Positions 322 through 36,500 of a stretch of 64,000 bases of DNA are shown one piece after another. Position 1 is the first letter of the stretch; each line of letters starts with the position of its first letter. The stretch lies in assembly GCA_037893245.1 (NCBI GenBank), contig JBAIAA010000518.1, forward strand, positions 620,001 to 684,000. The letters are read 5' to 3'. The position numbers were made by a program, and so were the translations under genes. The notes under the pieces were generated by a model, which had not been told where the DNA came from, made no database searches, and worked only from the letters and a program-made list of their open reading frames with translations. The stretch comes from Crossaster papposus (taxonomy: Eukaryota > Echinodermata > Asteroidea > Velatida > Solasteridae).

Positions 322-575
322 GAATTCCCTACGAAGTTCGCATCACCACCAGCGACAAGCGTGGGGCCGGGACGGACGCGCGGGTCTACGTCGTCATGTA
401 CGGAGGCAAGAAGGGCGAAGAGACGAGCGGCAAGATCTGGCTGGACGACGGGAAGTTTGCTCGCGGCCGCACCGACGTCTGCAGTGTGGAGATTGGGACG
501 ATACTTAGCCCTCTATCCAGAATAGACATCGGGCATGATAACGCCGGGGTGGGCGCAGGCTGGCATTTGGAGAAG
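322..575 (+). CDS. LOXHD1: LOXHD1 exon 1 of window: PLAT P1, N-terminal two thirds
   Basis: Acceptor cttag at 317-321, donor gtatta at 576. Entry is phase 1 (two bases finish a codon) and exit phase 0. It reads [20 protein letters not shown], then an unusual loop with [19 protein letters not shown], then [18 protein letters not shown]. It combines in one exon the parts that are split over two exons in P3, P5 or P6. The first codon is completed by an upstream exon outside the window. Confidence 0.9.
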
Positions 576-9500: not shown

Positions 9501-12500
9501 TGTCACCACAAAATGAGAGTAAAGTCGGAAATATTGAAAATTGAGATATTTGTATTTTCAACTTCTTGAGAAAGAGAGCTTCCCAATGGTATATAACACT
9601 TGGGGGTTTCGCGATAAATACTTTTTACAGCGCTCTAGAAAGTCATGGGATTTACAAAACGTGTTTGTGAGAAAACTTACTTTAAACATCTTTAACAAAA
9701 CACGCAAAAGATTACAAAAGAGGACAAGTAAGTTTCGGTTGAGCATAGCAACGGCTATGTTCTAATCATTATTTCTTCACAAACATTTCCACACATACAA
9801 ATTATTGTATAGACAACAACATATCAAAATTTCGAAAACGTGGGATACTTACGAGGACCTGATTTGCATATTTAATTACCGTGTTAATTAGACCACTAAT
9901 GGACTTTAATCTAAACACTAACTACGCAAAATCACATAATTTAAGAGGTTTTTGATCATCTGATCTCACCCAAAAAATGGGAATATGTAGAAGAGGACTT
10001 GGGCTTTCCAAATTACGCAAAATCTCAAAATTGACCACCCCTTCATATTTTGACTTTGGATGGCCATATCTCCGAATCACATCGTGCGACTTTACTCTCA
10101 TATTGTGGTGACAGGTCACATATATACCGGCCGGCACCATACTGTGTCATTTTTTTATTTGTCGCGCTAGGTGGCTGGATCGTGATGAGGATGATTGACA
10201 AATCGTCCGGATACTCGTAATGGAATCTTTGTGTCATTTTGTATTTGTCATGCTAGGTGGTTGGACCGTGATGAGGATGATGGACAAATCGTCCGGGAAC
10301 TCGTCCCCGAAGGAAACTCACAGCTTCTCTCCAGTAAGTCAAGATGAATAGTGTGCCATTAAACTTTTGATAATAATCAGTTTTAGATATGTGCAGGCGT
10401 TTTGAATTCCTGAAAAAAACTTTGCGTGTATACACATCATCCGACGCGAACTGGTTGAACTTGGTATAAAAACTGTCATCGTCATCATTTGTTTGTTTGG
10501 TGTTTTTTGTTTCGGGCGCAAATAATTATGCAGATGTTATTTATCTTTTTTGTGGACAGCCACATCCTACCACGTTTCCGTCAAGACGGGCGACGCGCGA
10601 TCGGCAGGGACAGACGCCAACGTTCACATCAAACTCTTTGGGGAAGACGGCGACTCGGGACTGATCCCGCTCAAACAGTCGGAGAACACCAAGAACAAAT
10701 TTGAGCGGGGACGGACCGACAAGTTCACGTTGGAAGCTGTGGACATCGGAAAGGTAAGTCGTCGTTAGTGTGCGTGCCACTTCTGCCACCATAAACGGGG
10801 TGACCATCCACCACATACGAGCTGTAAAGTTGCACATGTTGTTTTTACAGGAGGGACCAAATCACGATTGTAGTGGAGTACTTTCCGAGTATCAGCTTAA
10901 CTACTTGGGGCCAATTTCATAGAGCTGCTAAGCACAAATATTTGCTTAGCATGAACATTTTGTCCTTGGCAAAAACAAGGTTACAGACAAAATTTCCACG
11001 TGATCTTTATTGCTTTTGATTGATAATCAGCTGGTTGTTTGCTTAGCATGAAAAACACGTAGAATATTGGCTGGTAACCTGTCTTTAATGAGCAAAACTT
11101 TTTTGTGCTAAGCAATTTTTTGTGCTTAGTAGCTCTATGAAATTGGCCCCTGGGCCCAATTTCTTGGCTCTGCTTACCCCTAAGCGAAAAATTCCTGCTT
11201 ACTGTAGCAGAAACTTTCGTGCTTACGGTCAGCGTATTTCACACGTTAGCGAGGAATTGTGGCTTCTGCGCATGCATACATCCTGTAACTAAAGGATTCT
11301 GTGCTTTACGTGGTTAGCACAAATTGGTGATTGCAAGTGCGGAAATTTGTGGTTAGCAGAGCCAATAAATTGGGCCAGATATTATGTTGGTTTGGTCTGG
11401 ATAAAGCTGCATAATACAGACACTGGACATTAAATACTTTGCTAAATAAATGTATGAATTAAGCTTTTGAGACAAAAGCATTCAGTAAGTACTCCACCGA
11501 GTACTTTTTGAGTATTTTTTGAGTACTTTTTGAGTATTTTTTGAGTACTTTTTGAGTATTTGTTGAGTACTTTTTGAGTACTTGTTGAGTACTTGTTGAG
11601 TACTTTTCAAGTACTTTTTGAGTACTTTTTGAGTACTTTTTGAGTACTTTTTGAGTACTTTTTGAGTACTTTTTGAGTACTTTTTGAGTACTTTTCGAGT
11701 ACTTTTCGAGTACTTTTCGAGTACTTTTCGAGTACTTTTTGAGTACTTTTCGAGTACTTTTCGAGTACTTTTCGAGTACTTTTCGAGTACTTTTCGAGTA
11801 CTTTTCGAGTACTTTACGAGTACTTTTCGAGTGCTTTTCGAGTGCTTTTCGAGTGCTTTTCGAGTGCTTTTCGAGTGCTTTTTGAGTGCTTTTCGAGTGC
11901 TTTTTGAGTGCTTTTCGAGTACTTTTCGAGTGCCTTTCGAGTACCTTTCGAGTACCTTTCGAGTACCTTTCGAGTACCTTTCGAGTACCTTTCGAGTACC
12001 TTTCGAGTACCTTTCGAGTACCTTTCGAGTACCTTTCGAGTACCTTTCGAGTACCTTTCGAGTACCTTTCGAGTACCTTTCGAGTACCTTTCGAGTACCT
12101 TTCGAGTACCTTTCGAGTACCTTTCGAGTACTTCTGTCCCAAAACTTTGATTAAATAGTATCTTTATGTATCCAAAGTCCCAAGATGTTTTTGGTTCTAA
12201 CAATGACTTCATTTGTTGTCTACCGTCAATGTTTGTCTCTCTTTGATCGCAATTAACCGCTCAATATTTGGTAGTAAACGAGGTACTCGTAAAGCACTCG
12301 ACTGCAACACTGTAGCAAATGGTGTGTACTACCTTTAATTTTGACTCGTTTTGTTTCTTCTTCTCTTTCAGCTGGAGTACATGAAGATCAGCCATGACGG
12401 TTCGGGTCCTGGTGCGGGCTGGTTCCTAGACTCCGTGGAGGTTGATATACCTTCCAGGGGACTGACGTACATGTTTGCTGCCCACCGCTGGCTGGCGGAG

Positions 12501-15500
12501 GACGAGGAGGACGGCGAATTGGAGGTGGAGCTGTATCCCACGGAAACCAACAAGTCCAAAGCACGTACGTCGGAAACACTGCCTTAACCCTTCTATGGTT
12601 TTACCTTTCAAAACCTTTCAAAATCTGCTTACTTGACAAAATGGCTATAAAAAAGTATGAACCTTTCAAAACGCTCCAGAAATTGTTGCTACTGCACTAC
12701 TACACCTTTCAATAACTTTTGAAAGGTATTTTTTTTCTCATACCAGTTTGTTCAGAAAGTTGTTTTACCTTTCAAAATTGTTCATAGGTTTCTTTTGTCA
12801 GACAGTTTTCTCGCCTTTCAAAACATTTCAGTCCAAGAAACTTGAAAGGTATTTTTTTGTTCACACCACTTTGTTTAGAGAGTTGTTTTACCTTTCAAAA
12901 TCTTTCATAGTTCCCTTTTGTCAGACAGTTTTCTCACCTTTCAAAACCTTTCAGTCCATGAAACTTGAAAGGTCAGACAATTCTATGGCAACTGCACTAT
13001 ATGTAGGAGGGTTAATATCTCATATATCACTTTGTAATACAATATGGGTTGTTGCCTGCAATATTGTAAACCCTGATGTGATGCCTGTGTCAAAGGTCAA
13101 GAGGTGAGGTCAAAGTTTATTTGAGGTCAAGCTGTAAAATAGGGTAATTGCAAAAAGTAGGTGTCTCTCTTTATATGGTATCCTGTACGAGGTAACAGTT
13201 TACATTGGGTAACGTCATGAGTCGATGGGGCCACCGGACGTTGCTCATACAACGAGCATCTAGCCGTGATTCTTCCTCAAAACTGCAATGCCATGTACAT
13301 TGGGTGACGTCATGAGTTGATTGGGCTAGTTTTCATTCACGTGTCTCTTTTTTCTCAGGTATCCTGTACGAGGTAACGGTTACCACCAGACGTTGCTCAT
13401 ACAACGAGCATCTAGCCATGATCCACCCTCAAAACTGCAATGCCATGCTGTAAACATTGGTTGACGTGATGAGTTGATGAGGCTATTTTTCATTCACCTG
13501 TCTCTTTTTTCTCAGGTATCCCGTACGAGGTATCGATCACAACCGGCAGTTGCTCAGGAGCGGGGACGGACGCTAACGTCATCCTGCGCATCTATGGCGT
13601 GGACGGCGCCAAGACAGAAGAGTTCAGCCTGCGTAACCGCACCGACAACTTTGAGAAGAGCAACGTGGACAAATTCAAGGTACTACCGTCGCCACGACTG
13701 GGAACTTTGGGGCCACCGAAAAAACCATTAAACTGCTTAACCAGCTCGCGCCGGAGGACGTGTGTATATATACACGTTTTCCCCAGATTCAAAACGGATG
13801 ACGCATAAACATGCCACGAGCAAGGCCGGAAATGTCTGTCAGCAGCGAGCAAGGCCAGAAGTGCGTGGGTGGTGTGCTTCCCGGTACCATCGGCCAGAAC
13901 CCGTCTCGGATCACGTTTCGTTAAATATAACCTGTGCCTCGGCTCGGTGATGTTGAAATAATCCCGGCGCGAACTGGTTAAAAACAAATGTGACTGATGT
14001 GACTGATACGTTTTGTCTCGTATCAAAAAAGTTCAGAAAGAGACTATGCAATCTTTTTTTGTCTGTACGTCGTCCGTAGTCCTTCCACATATATAGCAGT
14101 ATGTGTCATTTTGGTTAGAGTTTACAAAAATGTGGTATATATGTGACCTGCTCCTACGAAACCCATACAAAGTTGAAAATTTCGGTTTTTAGAATTTGCT
14201 CAGAATGTATTCCAGTTGTTCAAATACATGCACTGGGGTGTATTTTTGTGTATTATTTGTTGTAGATTGAAGCTGAAGATGTTGGGCCAATTAGCAAGAT
14301 TCGCATCGGCCACGACGGCGCGGGACGCTTCGCGGGCTGGTTCTTGGACAGGGTAAGTTTTGGACATTTTTTTCAATGTCAATGTCAAAATAATTCTGGT
14401 GCAAACTGATTAATGTCTGTACAAAGTTTAAAGTTCAGATCAATCAATCAAAGTTCGCAGAGTGGACTGCAGAATTAAACAAAAATATCAATGAAATCGA
14501 TTCCTCTTATATATGGGGCAGTTGCCATAGAATTGTCTGACCTTTCAAAACCTTTCAAGTTTCCTGGACTGAAAGGTTTTGAAAGGCGAGAAAACTGTCT
14601 GACAAAAGAAACCTATGAAAGATTTCGAAAGGTAACACAACTTTCTGAACAAACTGGTGTAAGACAAAAAAAAAACTTTCAAGTTTCTTGGACTGAAATG
14701 TTTTGAAAGGTGAGAAAACTGTCTGACAAAAAAAACCTATAAAAGATTTCGAAAGGTAAAACAACTTTCTGAACAAACTGGTGTAAGACAAAAAATACCT
14801 TTCAAGTTTCTTGGACTGAAATGTTTTGAAAGGCGAAAAAACTGTCTGACAAAAGAAACCTATGAAAGATTTCGAAAGGCAAAACAACTTTCTGAACAAA
14901 CTGGTGTGAGAAAAAAAAAACCTTTCAAAAGGTTTTGAAAGGTGTAGTAGTGCAGTAGCAACAAATTCTGGAGCGTTTTGAAAGGTTAATACATGTACTT
15001 ATTTACAGCCATTTTGCCAAGTAAGCACATTTTGAAAGGTTTTGAAAGGTAAAACCATAGGAGGGTTAAGCTGTTCTAGATTGAACTTTGGAGCAGCTAA
15101 TAAAACTGTCCACTGTCTTGGAATCACAGGTCCAAATTGAACGCTTCCCGCCGAAGAGGCGCCTGAAACGTCCAAAGTCCCGGTCCAAGGCGCGGTCGCC
15201 GAGCGACGAGGATGACGACAGCGACGGCAATCGCGCCAAGAGGCGACGGTCCAAGGCGAAGAGCCGGGCCCGGAGTGACGAAGACGAGGAGGAAAAGAGC
15301 GACGACGGGAAAGAAGTTGACGAGAGCCAAGAGACCACCAAGTATCTGTTTGTCTGCAACCGGTGGTTGGCGCGCAGCGAGGACGACGGGCAGATTGTCA
15401 GAGAACTGGTCCCCACGGACGAGGCCGGCAACGTCCTCAAGAAGAACTCGCTCAAGAGTGAGTATAACTTGATGGGGTGTCGTGGCCGAGTGGTTAAGAG

Positions 15501-18500
15501 CGTGTGTCTTCTGTTTCACAGAGCGTGAGTTCGAATTCCGACCGTCGACACGTGTGTCCTTAAGCAAGGCAATAAAACCACTATTGCTTCATCCTTCGAA
15601 TGGGACGTAAAGCCGTTGGTCCCGTGTGTGTGTATTGTGTATATATTGAACCAGGACACGCACTTAAAAGAACCCAGTTACGCTTATCGCTAAGAGAAGG
15701 GGTTCGCCCCGGTGTTTCTGGCATTCCGTTCATCCTCCTACTCGGGTTTCTTCAGGCTTACGAGCTACAGTGCCTTGGGCGCTTTTGAGGAATCCTCGGT
15801 TTCATTGCCGAAAAGAAATAATAATAATAATAATAATAATAACCGCACCTACTCGGTTTCCTCTGTGGTTCATTTGTGACCTGTCATCATCACAAAATGA
15901 GCGTAAAGTCGACAAAATCAAAAAATTCTGTGGAAACAGAGCTTTCCAATGGTATATAACACTTGGAGGTTTGATACTCAATAATTTATTTATTTTTTTT
16001 TTTTTTTATAGTCTGGAGTCTTAATACAGAGATTATGAGAAAACGGGCATTTCTTGCGAGAAATTGTGTGAAAGGCATAGAAAGGCATAGTCAAAATTGT
16101 CTCAAAAACTAATGTTGTTTTTATCTGATCGTCCTGAAAAATTGGGAATTGATTGTTGGGGATTTATAGTCTTAGAAAAAAACATATAATCTCAAAATCG
16201 ACCACCCCTTCAAATTTTGACTTTGACTGGCCGTACTGGGAAATCATTCCGTGCGACTTTACGATCATTTTGTGATGACAGGTCACATTTGATGGTCAAT
16301 GCAACATTGCTAATGTTGCTAGTATCGTGACTTTTGGCGCGATCCCTGGCCACACGGCAATTAGTATTATTATTATCATTCATTCTTTATGGTAATGAAA
16401 CCAAGGATCCCTCAAAAGCGCCTTAGGCACTGTGGCTCGCAAGTCTGAAGAAACCTGTAAAGATAAGACAATGAGAAGAAGGTACAGTTTTAGAGGTGGG
16501 AGGAAAACACCAGAGGAATATCCTGGGGAAAACCCACGCAATCAGGCAGGGACTGAAAACCCAATCCACATAAAGGCCCAGGCCGGATTCGAACCCGGGT
16601 CACAGCGGTGGAAGTTGAGGAAAGAACCGCTGCGCCAACCTGACTCCCCGATTCGATTGTGGTTTCTGACTAGCGCATAGTCTTCTCTCTGCAGGTTTCA
16701 TCAAGCTTGCGAGCAACACTATCTAGGAGAATTTTGAGGAATCCTTGTTTTTCATTACTATGAGAAGACTTAATAAAAATAACTGTTACTCTAAGATTGC
16801 TTCATGTATTTATGTTCACTGTTGTTTCAGTGTGTGATTATGTCGTACACGTCTACACGGGAGACGTCTTCCAAGCGGGAACTGACGCCAACGTCTTTGT
16901 CAACATCTACGGCGAGAAGGGAGACACTGGCGAACGCAGGCTGAAGGACTCCGAGACCAACATGAACAAGTTTGAACGAAACCAGGTAAAGTAAACTGGT
17001 TGTGGTAAAGTAAAACCAGCTTTGGTTGAGGTTAATTAAAGGGAGACACTGGCGAACGCAGGCTGAAGGACTCCAAGACCAACATGAACAAGTTTGAACG
17101 CAACCAGGTAAAATAAACTGGTTGTGGTAAAGTAAAACTAGCTTTGGTTGAGGTTAATTGACGGGAGACACTGGCGAACGCAGGCTGAAGGACTCCGAGA
17201 CCAACATGAACAAGTTTGAACGCAACCAGGTAAAGTAAACTGGTTGTGGTAAAGTAAAACCAGTTTTAGTTGAGGTTAATTGAAGGGAGACACTGGCGAA
17301 CGCAGGCTGAATGACTCATCAGAGACCAACATGAACAAGTTTCAATGCAACCAGGTAAAGTAAACTGGTTGTGGTAAAGTAAAACCAGCTTTGGTTGAGG
17401 TTAATTGAAGGAAGACACTGCCGAATGCAGGATGAATGACTCTGAGACCAACATGAACAAGTTTGAACGCAACCAGGTAAATTAAACTGGTTGTGGTAAA
17501 GTAAAACTAGCTTTGGTTGAGGTTAATTGACGGGAGACACTGGCGAACGCAGGCTGAAGGACTCCGAGACCAACATGAACAAGTTTGAACGCAACCAGGT
17601 AAAGTAAACTGGTTGTGGTAAAGTAAACCAGCTTTGGTTGAGAGGTTAATTGAAAACCCGTTTAGGCCCAAGTTACCAAGTTAGTCGTGAGAGTGAAGTG
17701 TTAATAAGTGCACATAAACCGACGTGAACAAGTTTGACTGAAACCAGGTAAACTAAACTGGTTACGGTTATGGTAAAAGTAAACCAGTTTAGGCCCAAAC
17801 GTATCGCGTCAAGTGTAAAACCTCTCTATTGATGGACATCCATCTTTTGAACTGCCCGTTTTTTCGGTCGTCTGTTGACAGGAGGACATTTTCAAGATGG
17901 AGGCAGCGGATCTCGGCGGGATGAAGAAGCTGAAGATCAGACACGACAACTCTGGCCCCGGCGCTAACTGGTTCCTGGATAGGGTGGAAGTGGAGGATAA
18001 ACTGCACAATCAAAGGTCCGTAGCTGTATTAACTCTGCGAGCAGCCATGGGGCGGAATCGGAAGGCACATTTTGTTTCTTTTTCTAACTTCCATATGAAG
18101 CCGTCGGCCTATATGTGACCTGTCATCACAAAATGAGCGTAAAGTCGCACAGAGTGATTTCCCAGTACGGCCAGTCAAAGTCAAAATTTGAAGGGGTGGT
18201 CGATTTCGAGATTATATGTTTGTTTTAAAGACTAAATCCCCAACAATCAATTCCCAATTTTTCAGGACGATCAGATAAAAAAAAAAAATTAAAAAAAGAT
18301 AATTTTGACTATGCCTTTCTTTGCGCGTTCACACAATTTCTTGCAAGAAATGCCCGTTTTCTCATAATTTCTGTACATGTATTAAAACTCAAGACTAAAA
18401 AATAAAAATTAAAAAAATATTGAGTATCAAACCTCCAAGTGATTTATATACCATTAGGAAGCTCTGTTTCCACAGAATTTAGAAATACCCATATCTCAAT

Positions 18501-21500
18501 TTTAGATTTTGCCGACTTTACGCTCATTTTGTGATGACAGGTCACATATTCCATTTAATTTTGTTGTATCCCTCAATGACACATTGTAGTTTAAAGTGGT
18601 ATAGTCGCTTTTCAAGAAGCGGTTCACTAGGGGTCACTCCAGTCATGAGAAACTTGGGCCCCAGCGAAAAACCCATTCACTTGTGCACAGAACCCAATCA
18701 CTTGTGCACAAAACCCATTTACTGAAATTAACTTCATGACAATAATATAATTCTGCGTCTGTTGCGTTTCTAGGTATTATTTCCCCTGTCAGCGGTGGCT
18801 GGCGACCGGCAAAGACGACGGCCAGATCTCGCGCGACCTCATCCCGGTGGAGAAAGAGGTCATTCAGAGGTCGTTGTCCAGACGACGGTCGTCCACATCG
18901 GTCCGCGAAGAGATCGCGCTGGAAGCCAAAGGTTTGTTTTCTGTCACAGTTGTAGATTCTACTTTGTCTTGGAAGTTCATATATGCTGTTTTACAAAACG
19001 ATGTTAAAGGTAGTATATACACCATTTGCAGATATCGAAATTTTTTACTACCGAACTATTAAGAAATATCTTACTCATCTCATTTGGAAATAAATAATGA
19101 TTCTAGGCATCCAGCAAAATGATTGCGCTAGATATCTTGTAACTATTCCGAAAAACACGATTTTTATAAAGAAAAATTTGCGATCGCCGGACGGCGATCG
19201 CGAAAAAACAAAGATGACATAAGAAAAACTGCCGGCGCCGGTTGAAAACAAACGCTGTTTTTCATGCTTTTCTCGGCATCCATGATTGTAAAACTTCGGA
19301 CACGTCAGTCAAACGATATTTACTATAAAATACAACCCCCTAAATCTACCTATTCATGATAATTCAAGCAATTACCAATGGTGTATCCTACCTTTAATCG
19401 GAAAGAGCATTTAAAGGTAGGATACACCATTGGTAATTGTTTGAATTATCATGAATGGGTGGATTTGGGGGGTTGTTTTTTATAGTAAATATCGTTTAAC
19501 TGAGCTGTCCGAAGTTTTACATTCATGGATGCCGAGAAAAGCAAAAGAAACGGCATTCGTGGTTCTTATGTTCTTGTTTTTTTCGCGATCGCCGTCCAAG
19601 AATTTGTTTTATAAAATTTATTTGTTTCGGAATAATTACAGGATATCTAGCGTAATCATTTTGCTGGATGCCTAGAATCATTATTTACTTTCAAATAAGT
19701 ATGATATTTCATAATAATTTGATAGTAAAATGTTTTGATATCTGCAAATGGTGTATCCTACCTTTTAAAACTAGGATAAAAACACAACCATTCTTAAAAA
19801 ACTGGGCGTTTTTGTGTTATAATCTTGTGTAGTACGAGTTTCGAGCTCTACTTTTGCGAACACCCTAAACTCGAGTTGTTTGGGTGTAGTCGTAATTCCG
19901 GCCGTAAAGTGTTCGCCTTTGGCGAACGTGTAAGAAACCACATGTTGTGCATTGTTACTGTGGGTAAATTATGGGGAAAAACCACAACGTGTATCGAACA
20001 TTCAATGAAAACGACAAGAAAAACTGCCCACAATGTGTAACATTCTGCCAGTCTTGCGCGGAGAATGAAACGTTACGTCGCGGTATAAAAGTCCAAGTGG
20101 GAACGCGCGGAAGGAAAACTTTTGCTTAAAGGTAGTATACACCATTTGCAGATATCGAAAAAATTTACTACCGAATTATTAAGAAATATCTTACTTATTT
20201 AAAAGTAAATAATGATTGTAGGCATCCAGCAAAATGAGGGCCCTAGATATCCTGTAATTTTTACAAAAAATTGAATTGTATAAACCAAAATTCATTCTCG
20301 TCGTCTGGCGAGCGCGAAAAAACAAAGATAACATAAGAATAACTGCTCGACGCCAGTGGAAAACAAACGCTGTTTTTCATGCTTTTCTCGGCATCCATGA
20401 ATGTAAAAATTCGGACAGGTCAGTTAAACGATATTTACTATAAAATACAACCCCCCAAATCCACCCATTCCTGATAATTCAACAAATTACCAATGGTGTA
20501 TACTACCTTTAAGAGGTTAAAGGGATCTTATACGTTTGGTAATTACTCCAAAAATTAATAGCAATAAAAACTTACTTGGTAAGAAGTACAGCAGCTTTGG
20601 ATACTATAATGCATTTTTAGAAACTTGTCACTTCGAAGTACTGCGGTTATGGGAAAAAGATATCACTTTTTATCCCCAAAAAATTGAATCTGAGAAGCGT
20701 TAATACTGCAGTGACGTTTCTCAGATGGTGTATTCCAATGCAGATTATTCTTCCTGCGTGGACATAACCGCTCCAGAATTTCGACAATATCTCTAAATAG
20801 CTACCACCTTTTGAAATGAAATTTTTACAGGTTTGTTTTATGGTATATATCTATAACTATATAGGATTGAAACAAACATTTGGTTTCAATTACTAAACGT
20901 ATACGATCCCTTTAAGTCAGTTTTCCCATGTAGTTTATTCTAATTATTGATGTCTTTGTTGTTGACAGCCTCCATGGAGACATACCATGTGTTTGTGACG
21001 ACAGCCGATGTCCGTGGCGCTGGCACCGACGCTAACGTGTACACCGTCTTGTATGGTGAAAACGACGACACAGGTAAAAATGGTGAAACAATCACTTGAT
21101 TGGGATCCGTAGAAAGTAACGCTTTTTCACTTGTGAGTTACGTACAAACAAAATACAATTTCCAAAGGCAGTCTCAATCTGCTTCATGACCTCTTTAACT
21201 ATTCTGGTGTGTCATTTAACCTTGCGACGTGCGGCCATTTTGTTTTTACACGAACGCGCGTCCGTACTTTTTTCGGTTGTATTTCGTGCGTAACCCCCAT
21301 GCTGTTCGGTTTTATGGCTTTATATGTCAACACAGTACTTTCCCATATTGTCTGAATATATTCGATCCCAGCTGATGTTGTTAAATGGGGCAAGGCAACA
21401 ATAGCATAATTAATTGCTTGGGTAGGTCTGGTATACCCAGACTTGAATAGCCCATTTATGTACACAAAGTAATGAGATACTCGTGGGGCAGCACTTTCCT

Positions 21501-24500: not shown

Positions 24501-27500
24501 TTTAGGACACAGTTTGTCTCAATACATGCATGATTTTTGTACTTTCTCATCAATAAAGTTGATTTTGTTTAACCTAACTGAGGGTTAAAGTATACGTCTT
24601 AAAAAATACAAAAATAACGAAAAAAACAAAAATCGATGTCCGCCAGATTTGTCACCCCATTTCAACTTTAATGAGCTGTATCTCGAAATAGCCTGTGCGA
24701 CTTTATGTCGGGTTTCGTAGGAACGGGTCACATATTTGTGCTTAGCAGCTTCATGACCTCTGACCTTTACCATCATTTTGTTTGCGACAGAATTGGTCAC
24801 GACAACAAAGGCGGCTTTGCGGGCTGGAAGCTGGACAAGGTTGAGATCGACGCGCCGTCGCTCGGTAAGAAGTGGTACTTCCCGTGCGGTCGTTGGCTGG
24901 ATAAAGGGGAGGACGACGGGCAGATTGAGAGAATCCTGCAGCCGGTCGAAACGCGAACGGAGGAGTACCAAAAACGTGAGTGAAAAAGAAGAAAAAAGCA
25001 GAAAATTTGAAAGAACTTTTGGAATGTTCTTCACGGCCTTACATTTTAGCAGGGCGGCAGTGCCAGCACCAAATTTACTTCACCACAAACGAGTTCGTAT
25101 TTCATAGTTCTTATCTTTGCTTTCCTTCAGATGTGCCTTACGAGTTCACAATCCACACCAGCGATGTTTCCGGCGCGGGTACCGACTCGGATGTCTTCGT
25201 CACCCTGTACGGTCAGGAGGTCGTGACGAATCAGAAGAGTCTCTGCCAGACCAAGAAACAGAGGAAGGAATGCTTTGAGAGAAACCAAGTCGACAAGTTT
25301 GTCATTGAGGTAGATATTGAAAGGTACAGACTGCTATGAAATCTGTCACTCAGATGTCTCCGTCTCTCGGTACGGTCAGAAGGTCGTGACGAGTCAGAAA
25401 AGTCTCTGCCAGACCAAGAAACAAAGGAGGGAGTGCTTTGAGAGAAACCAAGTCGACAAGTTTGTCATTAAGGTAGGTATTGAAAGGTACAGGCTGCATT
25501 AAAATCTGTCACTCGGATGTCTTCGTCTCTCGGTACGGTCAAAAGGTAGTGACGAGTCAGAAGAGTCTCTGCCAGACCAAGAAACAGAGGAAGGAATGCT
25601 TTGAGAGAAACCAAATCGACAAGTTTGTCATTGAGGTAGGTATTGAAAGGTACAGACTGCATTAAAATCTGTCACTCGGATGTCTTCGTCACTCGGTACG
25701 GTCAGGAGGTCGTGACGAGTAGGAAAAGTCTCTGCCAGACCAAGAAACAGAGGAAGGAATGCTTTGAGAGAAACCAAGTCGACAAGTTTGTCATTGAGTT
25801 AGGTATTGAAAGGTACAGACTGCTCTGAAATCTGTCACTCGGATGTCTTCGTCACCCTGTATAGTCAGGAGGTCGTGGCGAGTCAGAAGAGTCTCTACCA
25901 GACCAAGAAACAGAGGAAGGAATGCTTTGAGAGAAACCAAGTCGACAAGTTTGTCATTGAGGTAGGTATTGAAAGATACAGACTGCTATGAAACCTGTCA
26001 CTCGAATGTCTTCGTCACTCGGTACGGTCAGGAGGTCGTGACAAGTCAGAAGAGTCTCTGCCAGACCAAGAAACAAAGGAAGGAATGCTTTGAGAGAAAC
26101 CAAGTCGACAAGTTTGTCATTGAGGTAGGTATTGAAAGGTACAGACTGCTATGAAATCTGGCACTCGGATGTCTTCGTGGGGGGTGGGGGGGGGGGATTC
26201 ACACACTCTAAATGTTTTAGCGTGGTGGCTCGTTCGTGTTCATAGACAGTGAGAACGCTTCTGGGTGATAATGAAAAGATTTACAATTACGTCGTAAGAA
26301 AAAGAAAACAAAAATGAAATTTAGATTGTTTCGTTTCCTGTGGGTTTTTTAACAGCTTGAAGACGTCGGTGAAACGATTGAAAAGCTCCGTATCGGACAT
26401 GACAACGCCGGGTTTGGAGCTGCCTGGCATCTTAATAAGGTGGAAGTACGCAGGCTGCTGGAAAACTCCAAGGTACGAGTCTATATTTTCTGTGAATAAA
26501 GATATATGTAGTAAAATCCCCTTGCGAAAGTTTCAGCCTCATCGGTCATTTCATGTCCAAGAAAAAAGAGACAATTTTCTGAAAGATTTTTTACCGGCAT
26601 TTAGCGGATTAATTCTCGTCTCATGAGACCAAAACTAATTGTTTTACTCATTTCTCAACGACTATAGCATTTCAGGCAAAACTATTCCATGGGAAGTTTT
26701 CTAACATCATCATGTTTATACCGTGTAAGTTATTTAAAATCTGTGAACATTTATGTTTTTTGAGATTTTCAAATTTAGCGGGGCATTTAAACATTTCAAA
26801 CTATAACGGTCATAATTCAAAACTTAAGTATAACATTTTACCAAATACATGATAATATTTACTGCTTGGTGGAGAGAAGCAATGAGTGACAAAAACGCCC
26901 TGCCCAACGGCACACGTACCCTAGCCACAGGCCGGATTCGCGAACCCGCAACCGGCAGGTTTTTACCCGCAGATTGCAAATTCTTCAATGCCCAAGACCA
27001 CGAGGCCACGGCACTCTCCACACTTATGTATATACCTTGCGCTGTACGGCCGGTTTTTTCTTTACACATACACCCACACTATTTTTCATAGTTCCTTGTA
27101 TTTCGTGTAATACCCCTATGCTGTTCGGTTTTATGGCTTTATATGTCAACACAGTACTTTCCCATAGTGTCTGAATATATCCCGATCCCAGCATGTCGAA
27201 AACAAATGGGGCAAGGCAACAATAGCATGATGATTGCTTGGGTAGGTCTGGCGGTAAAACCCAGACTTTAAAGGCCCCTTTATGTACACAATGTAATGGG
27301 ATACTCGTGGGGCAGCACTTTGCTTTGCAAAAAGCTGGGTCACCGGTTCAACCAGGCTTTAAGCGGCACTTACCATGTTATTTGGCTTGCTTTGAACTAG
27401 GAACACATGTAATATGAGATGAAAAGAATGAAAAAGTAATTATTTTTTTACGGCGAAGCGACTAGGAAAAATAGTACAGTGGCACATCGTAAGGATACAT

Positions 27501-30500
27501 CTTGAATTGTAACCCTAGGGTTCCAGGACCTACGTCTTTCCCTGCAACCGCTGGCTGTCGCGCAAGGAGGATGACGGGGAGATTGTCCGGGAGCTGGTCC
27601 CGGCGCAGATCACGGAAGAGAAGGTCCGGAAAGACGGAAGCACGAAGAAGAAAGAAGTCAAGCAGGACACGCTAACCAGTGAGCCTTATTGTCACGATAT
27701 CTATAGTCCTGGGCGAGTAGGAGATCTTGCGACTCAAGTACTCGCAAGGAAATTATACGCGAGTAGTCAAGTACTTATAAGAGCATAAAGACATGTTTAT
27801 ACGTGACCCGCTCCAGTAAAAGGTGACATAAGTCGCGCTATGCATTTATGAGTAATGGCCTGTTAAAGTTTATAGGGTAAATATTTTTTGTCAAAATTTG
27901 ATTTTCATTTTTGGTCTTTTCTACGAGTATACTCGTAGTGGCAGAATCCGGTACACCTGTTAATACTACGACTATACTCGTAGTCGGCAGTCAACGTGTT
28001 AAAACCTATTTGTTTCTGTCATCTACAGTGAAGAAGTACGCCGTTCACGTGTACACCGGCGATGTGTTCCGTGCCGGCACGGACGCCAACGTGTTCTGCA
28101 CGCTCTTTGGCGAGAGCAGCGACAGCGGGGAACGCCAGCTGCGTAACTCGGAGACCTACACGGACAAGTTTGAGCGGGGACATGTAAGTTCCAAACATAA
28201 TAGCTATGTAGAAATAACGTAACTGAAAGGGGATCAATAATTAGCCATTTGCGCGTGACTCCGAGTTAAATTTGAATAACATCTGGTACACTGACTTGTT
28301 CACGCACGTTTGTTTATGGTGTAAATCGAGGAGTTTCATTTGTTCCTCTCGAAAATTTCCTTTGTTTGTACTCTAACTTTTTTCCGACGGCTCTCATTGG
28401 TTTTGTACACGAATCTCAATCGAGGTCGTCCTCGATTCTAACCCTAACCCCAATTCACCTTCGTGTCGCCAGGTATGTGTCCTCCATTTACACCATAAAC
28501 AAACGCACGTACTCTTTTGGTACATAATTTGTCCTCTTCTACATTTTCTTTCATTATACCCTAACCCGATTTTACCTTGTTCTACCTTTTACTGAACACC
28601 CAACGCGCTATGGGGACTCGAGAAAAACAATGTCCCCACTACTCGGTCTGTCTTTTCCAAACAAAAGAGCCTGTCCCCCTAACGTGGTGAGTGCCTACCC
28701 ACACAGCTTGGCACCGTTATAACAAATTTTCACAGTTGTGCAATTTGAACTCCAAGGAAGTAATCAATATGTAAACACGTCATTTCTCCAGAACGGGAGG
28801 GGCTATGGAGCTCTATAATATACCAAATGAAAGCTTACGTTGTGGGCTTTTTAACCATGTATATTATACAAATATTGACTGCTTTGAGTGGTATAGTAAA
28901 ACTAGCCTCCCGAGGAGATCCATGGAGCATTCTAGTTTCCCGAGGCGAATACCGCGAAATAAAGCAGTCAATATTTGTTTTTTATAACACCTCACTCACA
29001 GATTCTGCACAATTTAAGCTTCCTGAAAGTATAGTAATGACAAAAAATCTCTGAATTCAGTGATCAAACTATACCTGTACTTTGTTGCCTTGATGAACGG
29101 GTGCGAGGGTGATAGAGCAATGTTTACGCAATGCACCGAAACACACGTCTCGGTTTCAGTCATGCTTTCGTTGCTATGCGCATAGTACTTGTGTTGCTAT
29201 GCGCATAGTACTTTTTCAGAACGAGGCTGCCTGGTATAGTCTTTTTGGAGCGCAAGTAAAAAATAGTAAAAATAGCAAGTGACACGTGACGCGCTCTCGG
29301 CCAATCAAGACAATCTGTGAGTGAGGTGTTATAAAACTCAATATCTGACTGACTATTGTGTTTTCTTCACACAGTGCGACAAATTCACCTTTGAGGCGGC
29401 CGACCTGGGCACGCCGTTCAATCTCAAGATTCGCCATGACAACACGGGCTTCTCGGCGGCCTGGTTTCTAGACCGCGTCGAGGTCATCGACCACGACGGA
29501 GAGAAGTTCGTCTTCCACTGTGAGAGATGGCTGGGGAAAAACAAGGACGACGGTAAACTAGAGAGGTCCCTCTATGCTAAGGTGGGTCTAGGTTTATGAT
29601 TATTATTATTATTATTATTATTTGTGACCTGTTCCAACGAAACCCGGACAAAGTCGACTTTTCAGTTTTTCAGATTTTGCTTTTTTCAAATTCTCTAGGT
29701 TCTCAGCTTTAAAATGATGTATCATTTACATATGTACCCCCACCCTATCTTCCCTGGGGTCTGGATTTAGTGATAAAACCCTGACAACCTAATTATGAGA
29801 TAAACAGCTTTAAAGTTCAGAAAAGCGTATTATTTCTATACACAAATGTTTCAAAAAATTGACAAAAAAACACACTTCTGGTAGACGGATTTTGTTCAAA
29901 TTTGAGGAGATTGAAGATTAATAGTGAGTGACTTAGGAAAACCTAAAACCTCAAAATGGTAAAATCCATCCCGAAATGACTTCAGGAGTACATTGTGACA
30001 AAACACATTGTGCGACTTTGTCAAGGTTTCGTTGGAACTGGTCACATGTTATTTCTGGTAATGAAACCAATAAACAACCATAGCAACGGCATACTTCCTG
30101 TTGTCTGATTGTCATAAGAGTTTCCACATTAGTTGGTCACTACCTTGACAACAATCTCCCGTAGTTTGTATTTTATACATCTTTAATATTTTTGGAAATA
30201 TGACACCTATAAATATCATATCAATAATGCACCCCAAATCATACGGACAGCGCACACAAAACCTCTTCAATTTTATCTTTATTTATCGTTTTTACATACA
30301 ATACATTAATGACAATAATTTCTGATAACTACACTTCCTAAAAATACAATGTTCAGAAAATCGACTTGGTCATAATTTTCACCCATGCGTTCACTTCAAC
30401 GGCCGATTGCGTAAAACAGCCTCAGCGACTTATTCCTGATTACGATGGAGCGGGTCACATATAGGACATTTGCCTTTTATTTAAGGCCGTGTCCGAAACG

Positions 30501-33500
30501 AGTGTCTAGAGCTACGGTCTACGTCTACAACTACAGCTACGTCTACGTAGGCGCTAAGGCAAATGGAATTCGGACTTGGCTACGGTAGAGCCTACGGCTA
30601 GATATTGCGCCCCCAAGCGATGATTGAATTAGTGTTTGCAAAATTACGATGTATAAGAATTCACAACAATTATCGTCTGCTAGATGTAATACGCAATGTT
30701 TGTTTACAGCCAGTCAAAATACCTGATGAAATTGACGTATTTGTCGATCTGTTAGTTTCAATTCATTGCACTATCATTGCAAAATAAACGAAAATTTGCT
30801 CCAAAATTAACGTTAGTGCTGCCGCCATTTTGTTTTGCCTGAGCTAGACAACTTCTTTTACGGCTAGATTTTGGTGACGTTTTAGCCGTAGCTGTAGCTC
30901 TAGACGGCATTTCGGACAGCGCGCGCGCTACAAAATGGCCGCCGAAGACAATAGACCTAGCCGTAGCTCTAGACACCCGTTTCGGACACGGCCTTAGCTA
31001 GACGTTTTTTTCTTCGTTTTCTGGGTTTGATTCTGTTTTTCGTCAGTTCGAGTCATTTTATTTTTCTGAATTTGTATTTCACTTTCTGACTGTCTTTACT
31101 GATTTTGGGCTCATCTTGTACTGTTTTTCTTTTGCAGGGTTATGAAGGCGATATGTCCAGCTCTAGCACTCTGCACAGGAGCAAGTCATCGGGGTCTCTG
31201 AAGTCGGTCCGATCGGACAGTCCCGGCCCACTCACCAGACGCAAGTCCATGCTAGAGATGCCAGAATTCACCGGACCAAGTAAGACCACTTAAAACTATT
31301 TTGTTCTAAAAAAAATTTTTTTTTATTTATTTATTTATTTTTTATTTTTTTTGAGAATTTGTACACGTTTTATTCTCTTTTATTCCTTGGATACTTAACC
31401 AGTTCGCGCCGGAATTATTTTAACATCACCGAGCCGAGAGACGGGATTATTTTTTTAACGAAACTCGATCCGAAGCGGGTTCAGGCCGATAGTGCCGGGA
31501 AGCACACCCACGCATTTCTGGCCTTGCTCGCGCGCTGCTGACAGACATTTCCGAACTTGAACTTGGCGTGTTTATGCGTCATCCGTTTTGAATTTGGGGA
31601 AAACTTTGTGTTTATATACGTCATCCGGCGCAAACTGGTTAAATGTAGGATACACCATTTTCAGATATCGAAAAAAAACATTACTACAAAATTATTAATA
31701 AATGTCTTATTTTAATACTTGGAAGTAAATAATGTTTCTAGGTGTTCATGTATGGGTCATTTGAGGTCATCGATTAATAAACACAACATTAGGTTTTCAG
31801 TGGTTTTTTTTTACACAAAACATATAAAGATCGACTGCAGAAAAAGCCAACACGCTTGTTTACTTTTTTGGGCTACGAACATTTAAACAACAGTCCTCTA
31901 ACCAATAAACCAGATCTTAATTAACCCTCCTATATATAGGGCAGTTGCCATAGAATTGTCTGACCTTTCAAAACCTTTCAGGTTTCCTGGACTGAAAGGT
32001 TTTGAAAGGCGAGAAAACTGTCTGACAAAAGAAACCTATGAAAGATTTTGAAAGGTAAAACAACTTTCTGAACAAACTGGTAAAAAAAAAAAAACCTTTC
32101 AGAAGGTTTTGAAAGGTGTAGTAGTGCAGTAGCAACAAATTCCGAAGCGTTTTGAAAGGTTCATACTTATTTACAGCCATTTTGTCCAGTAAGCAGATTT
32201 TGAAAGGTTTTGAAAGGTAAAACCATAGGAGGGTTGCATGCACATGTACATCTGTGATATCAGTTAAGTATGGGTATAACATTTTGAGAACCACATCCGT
32301 AACTAATTCTCAATCTTGTACCCACCCCTACCGTTTTGCCAGCGATTCCCTACACGATCCGCGTGACCACGGGGAAGGAGCCCGACATGGGCACGGACGC
32401 CAATCTCTACGTGGTGATCAGCGGGTCCAAGAAGAAGCAGACGACCGGCCGTCTGCCGCTGCAGATGGTCAACAAGACCAAGCTGGAGCCGGGATCCATC
32501 GAGACGTTCTCGCTGGAGGCGCCCGACGTGGCAGAGATAAAAAAGATAGAGGTATTATAGACAGGGATGTAGTCGAGTCCATCACAAGTCCCTGCGAGTC
32601 AACCACAAGTGCTTAAGTTCCAATTCAAATCACAAGCTATTCAAATAAGCTTTGGCAAAAGCATTCCTTTGTCATCGTTCATCCAGTTACTTGTGACTGG
32701 CTTCACAAAAGGACTTGTGAACGGACTTGCAGGGACTCGACTACAACCCTGATTATAGACATAACAATGACGCTCTTCTGGTCAAGAGGGGTCAGGTCGG
32801 CGCAGCAGTTCCTTCCTCGCCTTCTAACGCTGTGACCCAGACTCGAATCCGGCCTGTGCCAATATCTGGATTGGGTTTTCAGTCCTTGCCTGATTTCGTG
32901 GGTTTTTCACGAGGATATTCTTCTGGGGTTTTCCTCCAACCTTAAACAAAAAACTGTACCTTCTTCTCATTGTCTTCCCTCTACAGGTTTCTTTAGGCTT
33001 ACGAGCTACAGTGCCTAGGGATTTTAACCAGTTCGCGCCGGGATTATTTTAACATCACCGAGCCGAGTGGCGGGATTATTTTTAACGAAACTCGATCCGA
33101 AGCGGGTTCAGGTCGATGGTACCGGGAAGCACACCCACGCATTTCCGGCCTTGCTCGCTGCTGACAGACATTTCCGGCCTTGCTCGTGACGTGTTTATGC
33201 GTCATCCGTTTTGAATCTGGGGAAAACTTTGCGTTTATATACGTCATCTGGCGCGAACTGGTTAAGGGATTCTTGGTTTCATTACCAAAAGGAAATAGTA
33301 ATAAAAATAAGCGACCTGGCGCGACTAAACTAGAACATACAAAATTGTTTAATCCGATCTCACGCCTTGGAACAACCATCTGCGGTCGAGATCTTTCTCT
33401 GGCAATTTTCGTTATTTTGTTGGATTTATATCCACTTTAAATTTGGTCTGCGGACTCCAAACTTGTTGGAAAATGTAGCCACACTATTCAGATGTATATC

Positions 33501-36500
33501 TATGTTACATATAAACTTTCCTTTTACCAAGTACTGAATAATAATCACATTTTTATTCTAATAAGAAAATAGCAAATAGAACAATGGTTAATAATTTGCG
33601 ATAATTTGTGCCATAAACATGTCCATTCTACTCACTTTGTATGATTTTTTTCCCAAATTTGTAATCTTTCTTTCAACAAATTTGTCCCGGTGACGTCATT
33701 ATACCCAGGCATCGATCAGAGACCTGGGGTCAATTTCATAGAGCTGCTTAGCACAAAAAGTCTTGCTCATTAAAAACAGGTTTAACCAGCCAAAATTCTA
33801 CGTGTTTTTCATGCTAAGCAAAAAAAACAGCTGATTATCAATCAAAAACAATAAAGATCACGTGAAAATTTGGTCTATAACCTTGTTTTTGCAAAGGACA
33901 AATTTTCATGCTAAGCAAATTTGTGTGCTTAGCAGCTCTGTGGAATTGGCTGACACCAGGGGCCAATTTCATAGCGCTGCTAAGCACAACAATTTGCTTA
34001 GCATGAAAATTTGTTCTTGGCAAAAACAAGGTTACGGACCAAATTTTCACGTGATCTTTATTGTTTTCGATTGATAATCAGCTGTTTTTTTGCTTAGCAT
34101 AACAAACACGTAGAATTTCGGCTGGTAACTCGTTTTTAATAAGCAAGACTTTTTTGTGCTAAGCAAATGTTTGTGCTTAGCAGCTCTATGAAATTGGCAG
34201 ACACGAGGATAAATCGAACATTTTCATTCACGCGTATAAAGCTATAACAAAATGAACGCACCTTTGACCAACTTCAGATCGGCCATGACGGAGTGACCCC
34301 CCAGGAAGGCTGGTTCTTGGAGGAGATTGAGGTTGACATGCCAACCCTCGGGACACACGTCTGTTTTCCCTGCAAACGTTGGCTGTCTAAGGACAAAGAC
34401 GACGGCCACATCTCACGCATCCTGGTGGCTGAAGACGGGCAGAGCGCCAACTACAAGCCCAGTGAGTATAATGCTTGACCTTAATTAGTCTGGTTCCCTG
34501 ACCTTAGAGCGCCAACTACAAGTGAGTAATTGCTCAATCTTGACCTTAGTAACATAGTCTCGTTTACTGACCTCAGAGTGCCAACTACAAGCCCAGTTTA
34601 GTAATTGCTCAAACTTGACCTTATTAGTAACAAAGTCTGGTTCCCTGACCTCAGAGCGCCAACTACAAGCCCAGTTAGTTATTGCTCAACCTTGACCTTA
34701 TTAGTAACAAAGTCTGGTTCACTGACCTCAGAGCGCCAACTACAAGCCCAGTTAGTTATTGCTCAACCTTGACCTTATTAGTAACAAAGTCTGGTTCCCT
34801 GACCTCAGAGCGCCAACTACCAGCCCAGTGAATAATTGGGTATTTTCTATCTAGATGAATAGGTCTCCAGAAGGTTTTCACCAAATAGATAGGATTAGTG
34901 TTTGAGTTAGGGTTAGACAGTAGGCTACATGTATCTTTGTGTTTTTGTGATGGACTTTAAATGTAACTCTGTTGTTCTTGAACACTTCGGCAGCGTTCGT
35001 TTGTCTTTTTTCTCTCTCTTTTCTCGTTGTGTATATCTCTGACTTTTCCTTCCACTTTGGAACTAATACACGTACTAGACGGAAGTCCGACTATTGTTTC
35101 CCAGGTTCGCAGCATACACTACAAACCAAGTGAGTGGGTACCGGGGAAATTGTCGCATGACTCCGCATCATAGAGCAAGTTCGATCAAGGACTGTAGTTT
35201 AATAACCAGAGTCAACTAAGGGTGGGTTTTAAACGGGGCACACGGACGATTCGCGAAGGATGCTAATGCCTGAAGAAAAAAACAAAGTCCAACATTCGTA
35301 TTTTAGGTTCTAAAAGTTCGCCAAACATGTGAGCGGGGGTTTAGAAGCGTCGTCAGTTGTTCGTGGAAGTCGTTTTTAGTTCGGCAGGAATTTCAAAAAA
35401 AGTTGACCGAGATTCGTGCATCATTCGTGTTGTTCGGATTTTAGTCGCATATTCTTCGTGTATGTGGACTGGCTATAGTTCGGCAACGCTACACACGACA
35501 TTTTTTTCGCACATACATTGTGAGAACTACATATACGCACAAACTGCATTGTCGCGACACATTCGGGGAAAAAAATCTCTGAATGTTGGACTTTTTTTTG
35601 GCATTAGCATCCTTCCCGAATCGTTCGCGTGCCCCAAGAAAACCCACCCTAACCCCGTTTGGTGTTGCCAGGAAAAAAGTGCAAACTGAATCATCGCTCA
35701 TGCATGCTTCCTCCCTTGTTTTTGTTGATACCTATTTATTGGTCCCGTTCTTTAAAGGGATCGTATACATTTGGTAATTACTCCAAAAATTAATGTTAAT
35801 AAAAACTTACTTGGTAAGAAGTACAGCAGCTTTGGATAGTATAATGCATTTTTAGAAACTTTTCACTTCGAAGTACTGCGGTTATGAAAAAAGATATAAC
35901 TTTTTATCCGCAAAAATTTGAGAAGCGTTTATACTGCAGTGACGTTTCTCAGAGTGTGTATTCCAATGCAAATTATTCTTTCTGCGTGGACATAACCGCT
36001 CCAGATTTACGGCAATATCTCAAAATCGATAGTACCGGGAAGCACACCCACGCATTTCCGGCCTTGCTCGCTGCTGACAGACATTTCCGGCCTTGCTTGT
36101 GGCGTGTTTATGCGTCATCCGTTTTGAATCTGGGGAAAACTAAATGAGCATTTCACTAAATGAGCACTTAGGGAGACAAATTAGCGTTAGTTTTTAGTTT
36201 TAGATAATAAGGAGACATTGACACTTGGGGAGACATTTCAGTGTCTCCCTAAGTGTCTAGCTACCCTAAAAAACGATATTTAGGAATTTGTTTTGCTCTA
36301 GAACGACAGATTGGGGTCTAAATAGCATAAATCTCGAAGATCTTAGAGAAAAGGGTTAGGGTAAACAAGTTAGGACTGTTTTAAGTTTGTGTACATCCCT
36401 AAGTGTCAGTGTTTTTTTTAATATTATTATTATTATTATTATTAAACATAAATGCTTGATGCATGAAGATTATTATTTAGATTTGTAGCTTTTGTATACA

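Follow-up and report, generated by a model that had tools for sequence, protein, structure and literature searches.

The window analysed here, a 64,000-nt stretch of Crossaster papposus DNA, contains 32 exon cores of a multi-PLAT gene whose full extent is approximately C518:611.2-687.8 kb, with 44 exon cores. The gene, whose building blocks are PLAT domains, is one that we take to be LOXHD1-like. In the 1.02-Gb assembly, contig C632 carries a second copy of the locus, colinear with the window; based on this colinearity, C632 is taken here as the presumptive other haplotype, and we label the window haplotype A and C632 B. The features discussed below are listed in Table 1.

Exon-edge arrays on the window haplotype

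Using Tandem Repeats Finder (TRF) on the window, we recovered all five exon-edge arrays where a preliminary description had placed them, each across one splice junction. Its statement that five of 32 exons are affected is right for the window, the whole gene having 44. Sequence inspection of the five arrays showed that the unit combines part of the coding exon with one splice site and, as had been described, none of the units in these window arrays carries both splice sites of its own exon. Extra copies were counted by a same-strand BLAST scan with each exon (core plus 30 nt on each side) within approximately 1.5 kb. The scan agreed with the earlier copy counts, taking into account that the second extra copy of exon 10 is degenerate, was missed by the scan and was seen by eye, and that exon 26 gives four extra copies by the scan and five using a short anchor.

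Table 1. Features of the multi-PLAT gene in the window (positions in the window; extra copies by BLAST scan on the window haplotype).
Feature	Position	Strand	TRF interval, period x copies	Splice site copied	Extra copies	Description
Multi-PLAT gene	324..63615	+				32 exon cores inside the window; contains the five arrays
Exon 7 array	10143..10304	+	10143-10304, 86 x 1.9	acceptor	1	86-bp unit; extra copy lies 5' of the authentic acceptor; exon start ~10257
Exon 10 array	13161..13556	+	13233-13556, 157 x 2.1	acceptor	1	~157-bp unit of acceptor and first ~40 nt of exon; besides a degenerate copy, one clear extra copy whose acceptor lies immediately before 13359; authentic exon start ~13516
Exon 13 array	16916..17654	+	16916-17654, 122 x 6.0	donor	5, plus one older at 84%	122-bp unit of last ~70 nt of exon, donor and ~52 nt of intron; five extra copies downstream of the authentic donor, ~16986
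Older degenerate exon-13-edge copy	17718..17793	+				Present on both haplotypes
Exon 19 array	25185..26178	+	25185-26178, 163 x 6.1	donor	5	163-bp unit of last 125 nt of exon, donor and 38 nt of intron
Exon 21 donor region	27650..27690	+				Single-copy on the window haplotype, opposite an array on C632
Exon 26 array	34440..34838	+	34487-34838, 77 x 4.7	donor	4	~77-bp unit of last ~21 nt of exon, donor and intron; 4-5 extra copies

GT or AG sites are retained in many of the array copies, not in all, which bears out the earlier remark that the arrays create decoy splice sites. The extra copy of exon 7 has an AG acceptor together with an in-frame stop, and one of the exon-19 copies has lost its GT. 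Seven arrays were read through, and in six of them the first extra copy contained a stop codon. At the arrays examined, we found no new intron inside formerly continuous coding sequence; the coding exon is uninterrupted and the copies lie in the existing intron.

Differences between the two presumed haplotypes

The two copies of the gene differ in copy number at four of the five window arrays. Exon 7 has two copies in total on each. For exon 10, inspection of C632 by eye revealed just one degenerate copy and unrelated inserted sequence. Exon 13 has six copies on the window haplotype versus one intact copy plus short degenerate remnants on C632, exon 19 has six versus five (5.0), and exon 26 has six versus at least 17 (at least 16 extra, over 1.3 kb). 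In the exon 26 array, the terminal copies A5 and B13, one from each haplotype, are mutually closest. Interior copies have expanded on B, where B0 and B2 are identical over the 90 nt compared. This pattern of homogenised interior and allelic terminal units is not clear at exon 19, unlike exon 26.

Mis-assembly of repeats would be a very improbable explanation of the arrays. Short tandem arrays are error-prone, and among the cases described in PMC3087553 one such array had been aberrantly assembled in a draft genome; here, however, the same borders (exons 7, 19 and 26) bear arrays on each of two contigs, exons 19 and 26 differ in variants and copy number between the contigs, and point changes distinguish the copies. 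The second colinear copy of the locus thus argues against an artefact and shows array turnover.

Two further exons have an array on C632 only, with a single-copy site opposite. One is f8, the exon just upstream of the window, whose array is described below. The other is exon 21, where the array (C632:45937-45167, 148 bp x 5.2) is more complex than a simple duplication: a piece of exon edge, approximately 33 bp long, alternates with a spacer of approximately 115 bp that forms a strong hairpin when folded and that the window haplotype lacks. These features would fit an origin in which a small MITE-like hairpin element inserts beside an exon, generates a long target-site duplication and is then amplified in tandem together with the duplicated piece. 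As a general origin of the arrays such an insertion is improbable: the arrangement was seen at exon 21 alone, exon 19 and, by eye, f8 are in line with simple duplication at short homology, and in the stretches of sequence examined the spacer had one weak match outside its own array (76% over 51 bp). We retain this origin for exon 21 on C632 only.

Altogether, border-spanning copies occur on at least one haplotype at seven of the 44 exons (7, 10, 13, 19, 21, 26 and f8), on the acceptor side of exons 7 and 10 and on the donor side of the other five. An old exon-derived copy of the upstream exon f4 is present on both haplotypes; its alignment stops short of the splice site, so that f4 is an eighth exon with an exon-derived copy, outside the border-copy count. 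The remnants of older exon 13 copies beside the young 122-bp array, together with the one-haplotype arrays of exon 21 and f8, support recurrent local duplication. This part of the preliminary description's proposal stands; RNA-templated repair and R-loops, which it had also named, are singled out by no result.

The array of f8 on C632, with a unit of 78 bp (26 codons), is the exception on read-through, the authentic frame staying open through six complete extra copies, and it is not certain that the copies there are always intronic. Such an array would fit copies that are functional and under selection, as back-up or decoy splice sites or as a source of in-frame peptide repeats. The GT or AG sites kept by many copies point the same way, as does the divergence among exon 19 copies on C632, which is 0.026 in the exon-derived part and 0.092 in the intron-derived part. 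Nevertheless, we regard selection for function as quite improbable, given that the presence and copy number of arrays vary between the two haplotypes, that the exon- and intron-derived divergences of exon 19 are similar on the window haplotype (0.071 and 0.100), and that stops interrupt the six other arrays read.

Comparison of exon edges with introns

Local repeats are also abundant in the introns of the same gene, which are the main control for the preliminary description's claim. For A, nearby same-strand copies were found in 24 of 77 intron windows and 6 of 44 exon windows before removal of dispersed elements; for B, the counts were 24 of 90 and 7 of 44. Inverted copies were present in 31 of 77 (A) and 34 of 90 (B) intron windows, which indicates that many of the same-strand intron copies are dispersed elements. 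After these elements had been removed, and intron windows inside exon-edge arrays had been taken out by hand count, copies remained in 12 of 163 (A) and 29 of 194 (B) intron windows and in 5 of 44 (A) and 7 of 44 (B) exons, the value for A becoming 6 if exon 13 is included despite having been filtered out as dispersed. The corresponding odds ratios were 1.6-2.0 for A (P 0.37-0.23) and 1.1 for B (P 0.82); the filtered counts are close to parity and no lower for exons than for introns. Rotation of the exons along the gene gave no excess, with 5 observed versus 6.0 expected for A and 6 versus 8.9 for B in a test that lost exon 13 to the filters and retained some short-period arrays.

A hand-counted seed test over distinct long-period loci assigned 8 of 17 to exon edges, the eight including f4 and the other nine being intronic. 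The tally omits arrays whose basic period is below 40 bp or which consist of dispersed elements, as well as isolated weak matches and the 20-kb repeat intron, and another reader may differ by one to three. Against an expectation of 16% for random units, this gives P 0.003 (P 0.008 for 7 of 16, without f4); against 25%, the values are 0.04 and 0.08, respectively. Additionally, single-unit permutation of the five window arrays gave a product of 7e-5, a figure that covers just the arrays that drew attention.

The seed count and the permutation product would be in agreement with exon borders being true hot spots, at which splicing- or transcription-linked damage (R-loops, RNA-templated repair or stalled forks) seeds duplications. 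We consider this unlikely, since neither the rotation test nor the filtered odds ratios gave a significant excess, the permutation figure is based only on the arrays that had been noticed, and copies beside an exon under constraint would be expected to decay at a lower rate and to be more readily recognised. The absence of over-representation by rotation and of significance after filtering suggests that duplication is not aimed at exons; nevertheless, the seed count exceeds the expected proportion of approximately 16%, and there may be a preference for exon edges. Hence, exons are not clearly more often affected than introns of the same gene, and a modest exon-edge excess is possible by the hand-counted seed test. 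The earlier statement that the arrays are far more frequent at exon edges than chance would allow is not established by these counts.

Elsewhere in the assembly, four short stretches of other PLAT genes, with approximately 6-7 exons and thus too few to compare, contained no exon-edge arrays, and 13 chosen 10-kb stretches, which looked mostly non-genic or satellite-like, yielded no exon rate. A GFP-family search had no match, either here or in the controls.

Comparison with amphioxus mirages

Exon-edge arrays as a kind are already known as mirages, repeats that were named in amphioxus and are described from lancelet Adh3, globins, TnC and PGBD5 in PMC3087553 and PMC3902484. Their occurrence in several unrelated genes speaks against the earlier idea of a process special to the gene studied here. 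In BflGb6, BflGb9 and Adh3, the passages of PMC3087553 describe tandem units that lie over the exon-intron boundary at either exon border, measure 150-160 bp in BflGb6, carry AG/GT signals in many but not all units and, in one comparison of two haplotypes, number 6 and 3; the interior units are homogenised and the edge units are not. The sea star arrays resemble them in the boundary-spanning units at seven exons, in the use of either border, in the partial retention of AG/GT, in the copy-number difference between the two presumed haplotypes, and in the homogenised interior and allelic terminal units of exon 26. They differ in the far greater length of the gene, of whose 44 exons 7 have an affected border on at least one haplotype (eight with f4). 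In addition, two of the arrays are present on one haplotype and absent from the other, one is in frame, and one is a composite that includes a hairpin spacer.

Several exon-edge arrays in a single gene are also described for lancelet PGBD5, where repeats of 60 bp at exon 3 and 108 bp at exon 4 occur in 2 or 7 and 3 or 6 copies, respectively, in two versions of the genome sequence (PMC3902484); as far as that description goes, PGBD5 has two such exons, fewer than here, and the two versions are not given as named haplotypes. An idea cited in PMC3087553, and also the topic of PMC4974935 and PMC3443670, is that introns may be gained by tandem duplication of exon sequence bearing AGGT. Splice signals are duplicated in both situations, but the units found here carry one splice site and lie inside existing introns.

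Proposed origin and tolerance of the arrays

We propose that the arrays are probably mirage-type minisatellites, produced by local tandem duplication and subsequent copy-number change under a selection filter. This explanation draws on the arrays and their anatomy, the copy-number differences between haplotypes and the single-copy sites opposite the arrays of exon 21 and f8, as well as on the terminal and interior copies of exon 26, whose pattern is the one described for mirage clusters in the relevant part of PMC3087553. The founding step would be a local tandem duplication of approximately 75-165 bp that by chance spans one exon-intron border; shared ends are cleanly readable at one array, that of exon 19, whose duplicated unit has the 4 bp ACTC at both ends. 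Unequal exchange or replication slippage may then raise or lower the copy number.

Throughout, the intact exon would stay joined to one splice site of its own, in the first copy of a donor-side array and in the last copy of an acceptor-side array. The arrays would be tolerated because the complete exon keeps this site, the extra copies then being intronic, and the gene is presumably spliced normally despite them. A comparable situation is suggested in PMC3087553, where Adh3 data and globin RT-PCR indicate that regular splicing is apparently undisturbed by mirages. Selection would probably remove duplications that lie within an exon or cover it entirely, since these would alter the protein. The arrays may thus be what selection has left of frequent local duplication throughout the gene, and not the result of an exon-aimed process.

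Significance

In the sources drawn on here, mirages are known from a handful of lancelet genes; in the gene described here, they reach a density of 7 of 44 exons on at least one haplotype, and they have been gained and lost between two haplotypes. Where a single-copy site lies opposite an array, the founding duplication can be read, so that the proposed link between mirages and intron gain becomes testable in population data. There is a small chance that exon borders in this lineage are a real, several-fold hot spot of tandem duplication, the chromosomes of one animal differing in which exons bear arrays. If true, such a hot spot would provide living populations with a steady supply of decoy splice sites, of in-frame coding repeats such as that of f8 on C632, and of raw material for new introns.

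The PLAT gene and its two copies

A single gene on the plus strand crosses the window (C518:620001-684000) in an assembly of 1.02 Gb and 1841 contigs, with 32 exon cores inside the window. Joined exon translations matched the Pfam PLAT domain in all three cases tested (E-values 1.4e-14, 5.9e-24 and 7.3e-23), and one of them also matched the PLAT domains of lipoxygenase and polycystin-1 in the PDB. In its long chain of PLAT domains, the gene resembles LOXHD1. A copy colinear with the window lies on the minus strand of contig C632; where the two can be aligned, identity is mostly about 86-99%. Because 44 of 44 exon peptides found their best matches there, in the same order, this copy is taken, on sequence comparison, as the second haplotype (B, the window copy being A). 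Haplotype B, unlike A, has an in-frame stop and a split match in g4, the last PLAT exon found.

Other repeats occur in and around the gene (see table). Tandem repeats of ~3 kb, which themselves contain 60-bp and 84-96-bp minisatellites, fill most of one intron. The gene's introns also hold several copies, in both orientations, of a dispersed element with internal ~122-bp repeats (consensus TTGAAAGGTATT...). Elsewhere in the assembly, two of 13 chosen 10-kb stretches (L025 and L028) are nearly all long-period satellite, with units of 645 and 486 bp and 99% matches.

Positions and copy numbers of the exon-edge arrays and neighbouring features (bare positions are those of the window; C518, window contig; L-numbers, stretches of the assembly outside the window; f8, an upstream exon)
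Feature	Position	Haplotype A	Haplotype B	Remarks
Whole PLAT gene	about C518:611.2-687.8 kb (+)			44 exon cores
Exon 7 array		2 copies	2 copies	total
Exon 10 array		authentic + one clear + one degenerate	authentic + one degenerate + inserted sequence	B by eye
Exon 13 array		six + one old copy	one intact + short old remnants
Exon 19 array		6.1 copies	5.0 copies
Exon 26 array		6 copies	at least 17 copies	total
Exon 21 array	C632:45937-45167	one copy	148 bp x 5.2	B only
f8 array	C632:69844-68885 (L013:4885-5844)	one copy	78 bp x 12.3	B only; just upstream of window
Exon g4	L019:7087-7295 (C632:11087-11295)
~3-kb tandem repeats	44220-62465	~18 kb	just ~4 kb (C632 about 20.4-16.5 kb)
Dispersed element	6523-7415, 12719-12973, 14547-14928
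11-bp minisatellite	11498-12133	~58 copies	looks shorter	intronic
A/T-rich satellite	L016:8122 to L017:10000			downstream of gene; at least 11 kb; units 88 + 105 bp, ~193-bp period

Anatomy of the exon-edge arrays

TRF analysis of the window gave positions matching those of the five arrays in the preliminary description. Based on our reading of the sequence, the acceptor border is copied upstream of exons 7 and 10, and the donor border downstream of exons 13, 19 and 26; in each of these window arrays, the copy adjoining the remainder of the exon is the complete one. When every exon was scanned within about 1.5 kb, exon-derived copies were found at 8 of 44 exons on at least one haplotype (f4, f8, 7, 10, 13, 19, 21 and 26), and none on either haplotype at the other 36. 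The copies include the exon border at seven of these eight exons. At the exception, the upstream exon f4, both haplotypes carry an old copy (74-75% identity) that aligns within the exon core and does not reach the border.

In six arrays (exons 7, 10, 13, 19 and 26, and exon 21 on C632), read-through encounters a stop codon before the end of the first extra copy, the starting point being the authentic exon except at exons 7 and 10, where it was the upstream copy. In the f8 array on B, each unit corresponds to 26 codons, and the authentic frame runs through six complete extra copies before meeting its first stop in the seventh. Judged from its reading frame, this array could encode peptide repeats, given the use of a downstream donor.

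A possible preference for exon borders

The preliminary description held that these arrays exceed chance. This obviously applies to the arrays themselves, whereas a preference for exon borders is only possible, the tests being mixed. A unit-by-unit permutation of the five window arrays gave a product of 7e-5, which counts just the arrays already noticed. In a hand tally of distinct long-period, non-dispersed loci on both haplotypes, 8 of 17 were exon-edge (P = 0.003, 0.011 and 0.040 with 16, 20 and 25% expected, respectively); without f4, the tally was 7 of 16 (P = 0.008, 0.027 and 0.080).

Nearby same-strand copies (offset at least 40) were found for 24/77 intron windows on A and 24/90 on B, and for 6/44 and 7/44 exon windows. 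Since inverted copies were present in 31/77 (A) and 34/90 (B) intron windows, much of the intron signal corresponds to dispersed elements. Their removal left 20/171 (A) and 47/212 (B) intron windows, and 5/44 exons on A, where the filter put exon 13 among the dispersed elements, and 7/44 on B. With the further exclusion of the intron windows inside exon-edge arrays, counted by hand (8 on A and 18 on B), the intron counts were 12/163 and 29/194. The resulting exon odds ratio was 1.6 on A (P = 0.37; 2.0 and P = 0.23 with exon 13) and 1.1 on B (P = 0.82). Rotation of the exons along the gene, a test in which some short-period arrays were kept, exon 13 was dropped and ages were unmatched, showed no excess on A (5 observed vs 6.0 expected, P = 0.78) or B (6 vs 8.9, P = 0.95). 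Additionally, constraint on an exon should slow the divergence between it and an adjacent copy, compared with that of two copies lying in introns; by this reasoning, the hand tally of exon-edge loci would be inflated.

Seeding and growth of the arrays

The exon 19 unit starts at an exonic ACTC, and ACTC also stands at the very beginning of what follows the haplotype B array; thus, 4 bp are common to the ends of the unit. The f8 junction, inspected by eye, is compatible with short imperfect exon-intron homology. At exon 21 on B, a ~33-bp donor-spanning piece alternates with a ~115-bp spacer that is absent from A and forms a strong predicted hairpin (-40.7 kcal/mol, RNA parameters). The spacer may have arisen by insertion with target duplication, or as filler during repair, with later amplification; the array may also once have existed on A and been lost via recombination between repeats.

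At exon 26, the terminal copies of A and B are mutual nearest, and the interior copies have multiplied on B; growth after seeding thus looks like ordinary minisatellite turnover. Among the exon 19 copies, mean pairwise differences of the exon-derived and intron-derived parts are similar on A (0.071 and 0.100), whereas on B the exonic value is lower (0.026 vs 0.092), which could reflect recent homogenisation or some constraint. The exon-directed mechanism proposed in the preliminary description is not required by the evidence.

Relation to lancelet mirages

In lancelets, arrays of this kind are called mirages. One report describes them in the globins BflGb6 and BflGb9, Adh3 and further loci, notes haplotype differences, suggests that they contribute to intron gain, and finds regular splicing apparently undisturbed in Adh3 and the globins (PMC3087553). 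Another adds TnC and PGBD5; in PGBD5, two exon-edge arrays vary in copy number from one genome version to another (PMC3902484). Given these lancelet genes, the array kind is already known and found in more than one gene. A lancelet host is a tentative reading, based partly on the mirages themselves: amphioxus is described as having roughly 500 Mb and 3.2-4.2% heterozygosity (PMC12500494), with which a 1.02-Gb assembly carrying this locus twice would be compatible. A GFP-family search gave no match in the assembly, nor in any control genome. The comparison with other PLAT genes of the assembly yielded no exon-edge arrays in ~6-7 exons (four stretches, 10.7 kb), too few to compare. Among the matches listed from the open-licence literature, we found neither a genome-wide mirage survey nor a report of mirages in this PLAT gene.

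The arrays are a real and well-resolved example of the known mirage kind, to which they add some new detail: their high density within a single gene, arrays present on one haplotype and absent from the other, one in-frame array and one composite array.
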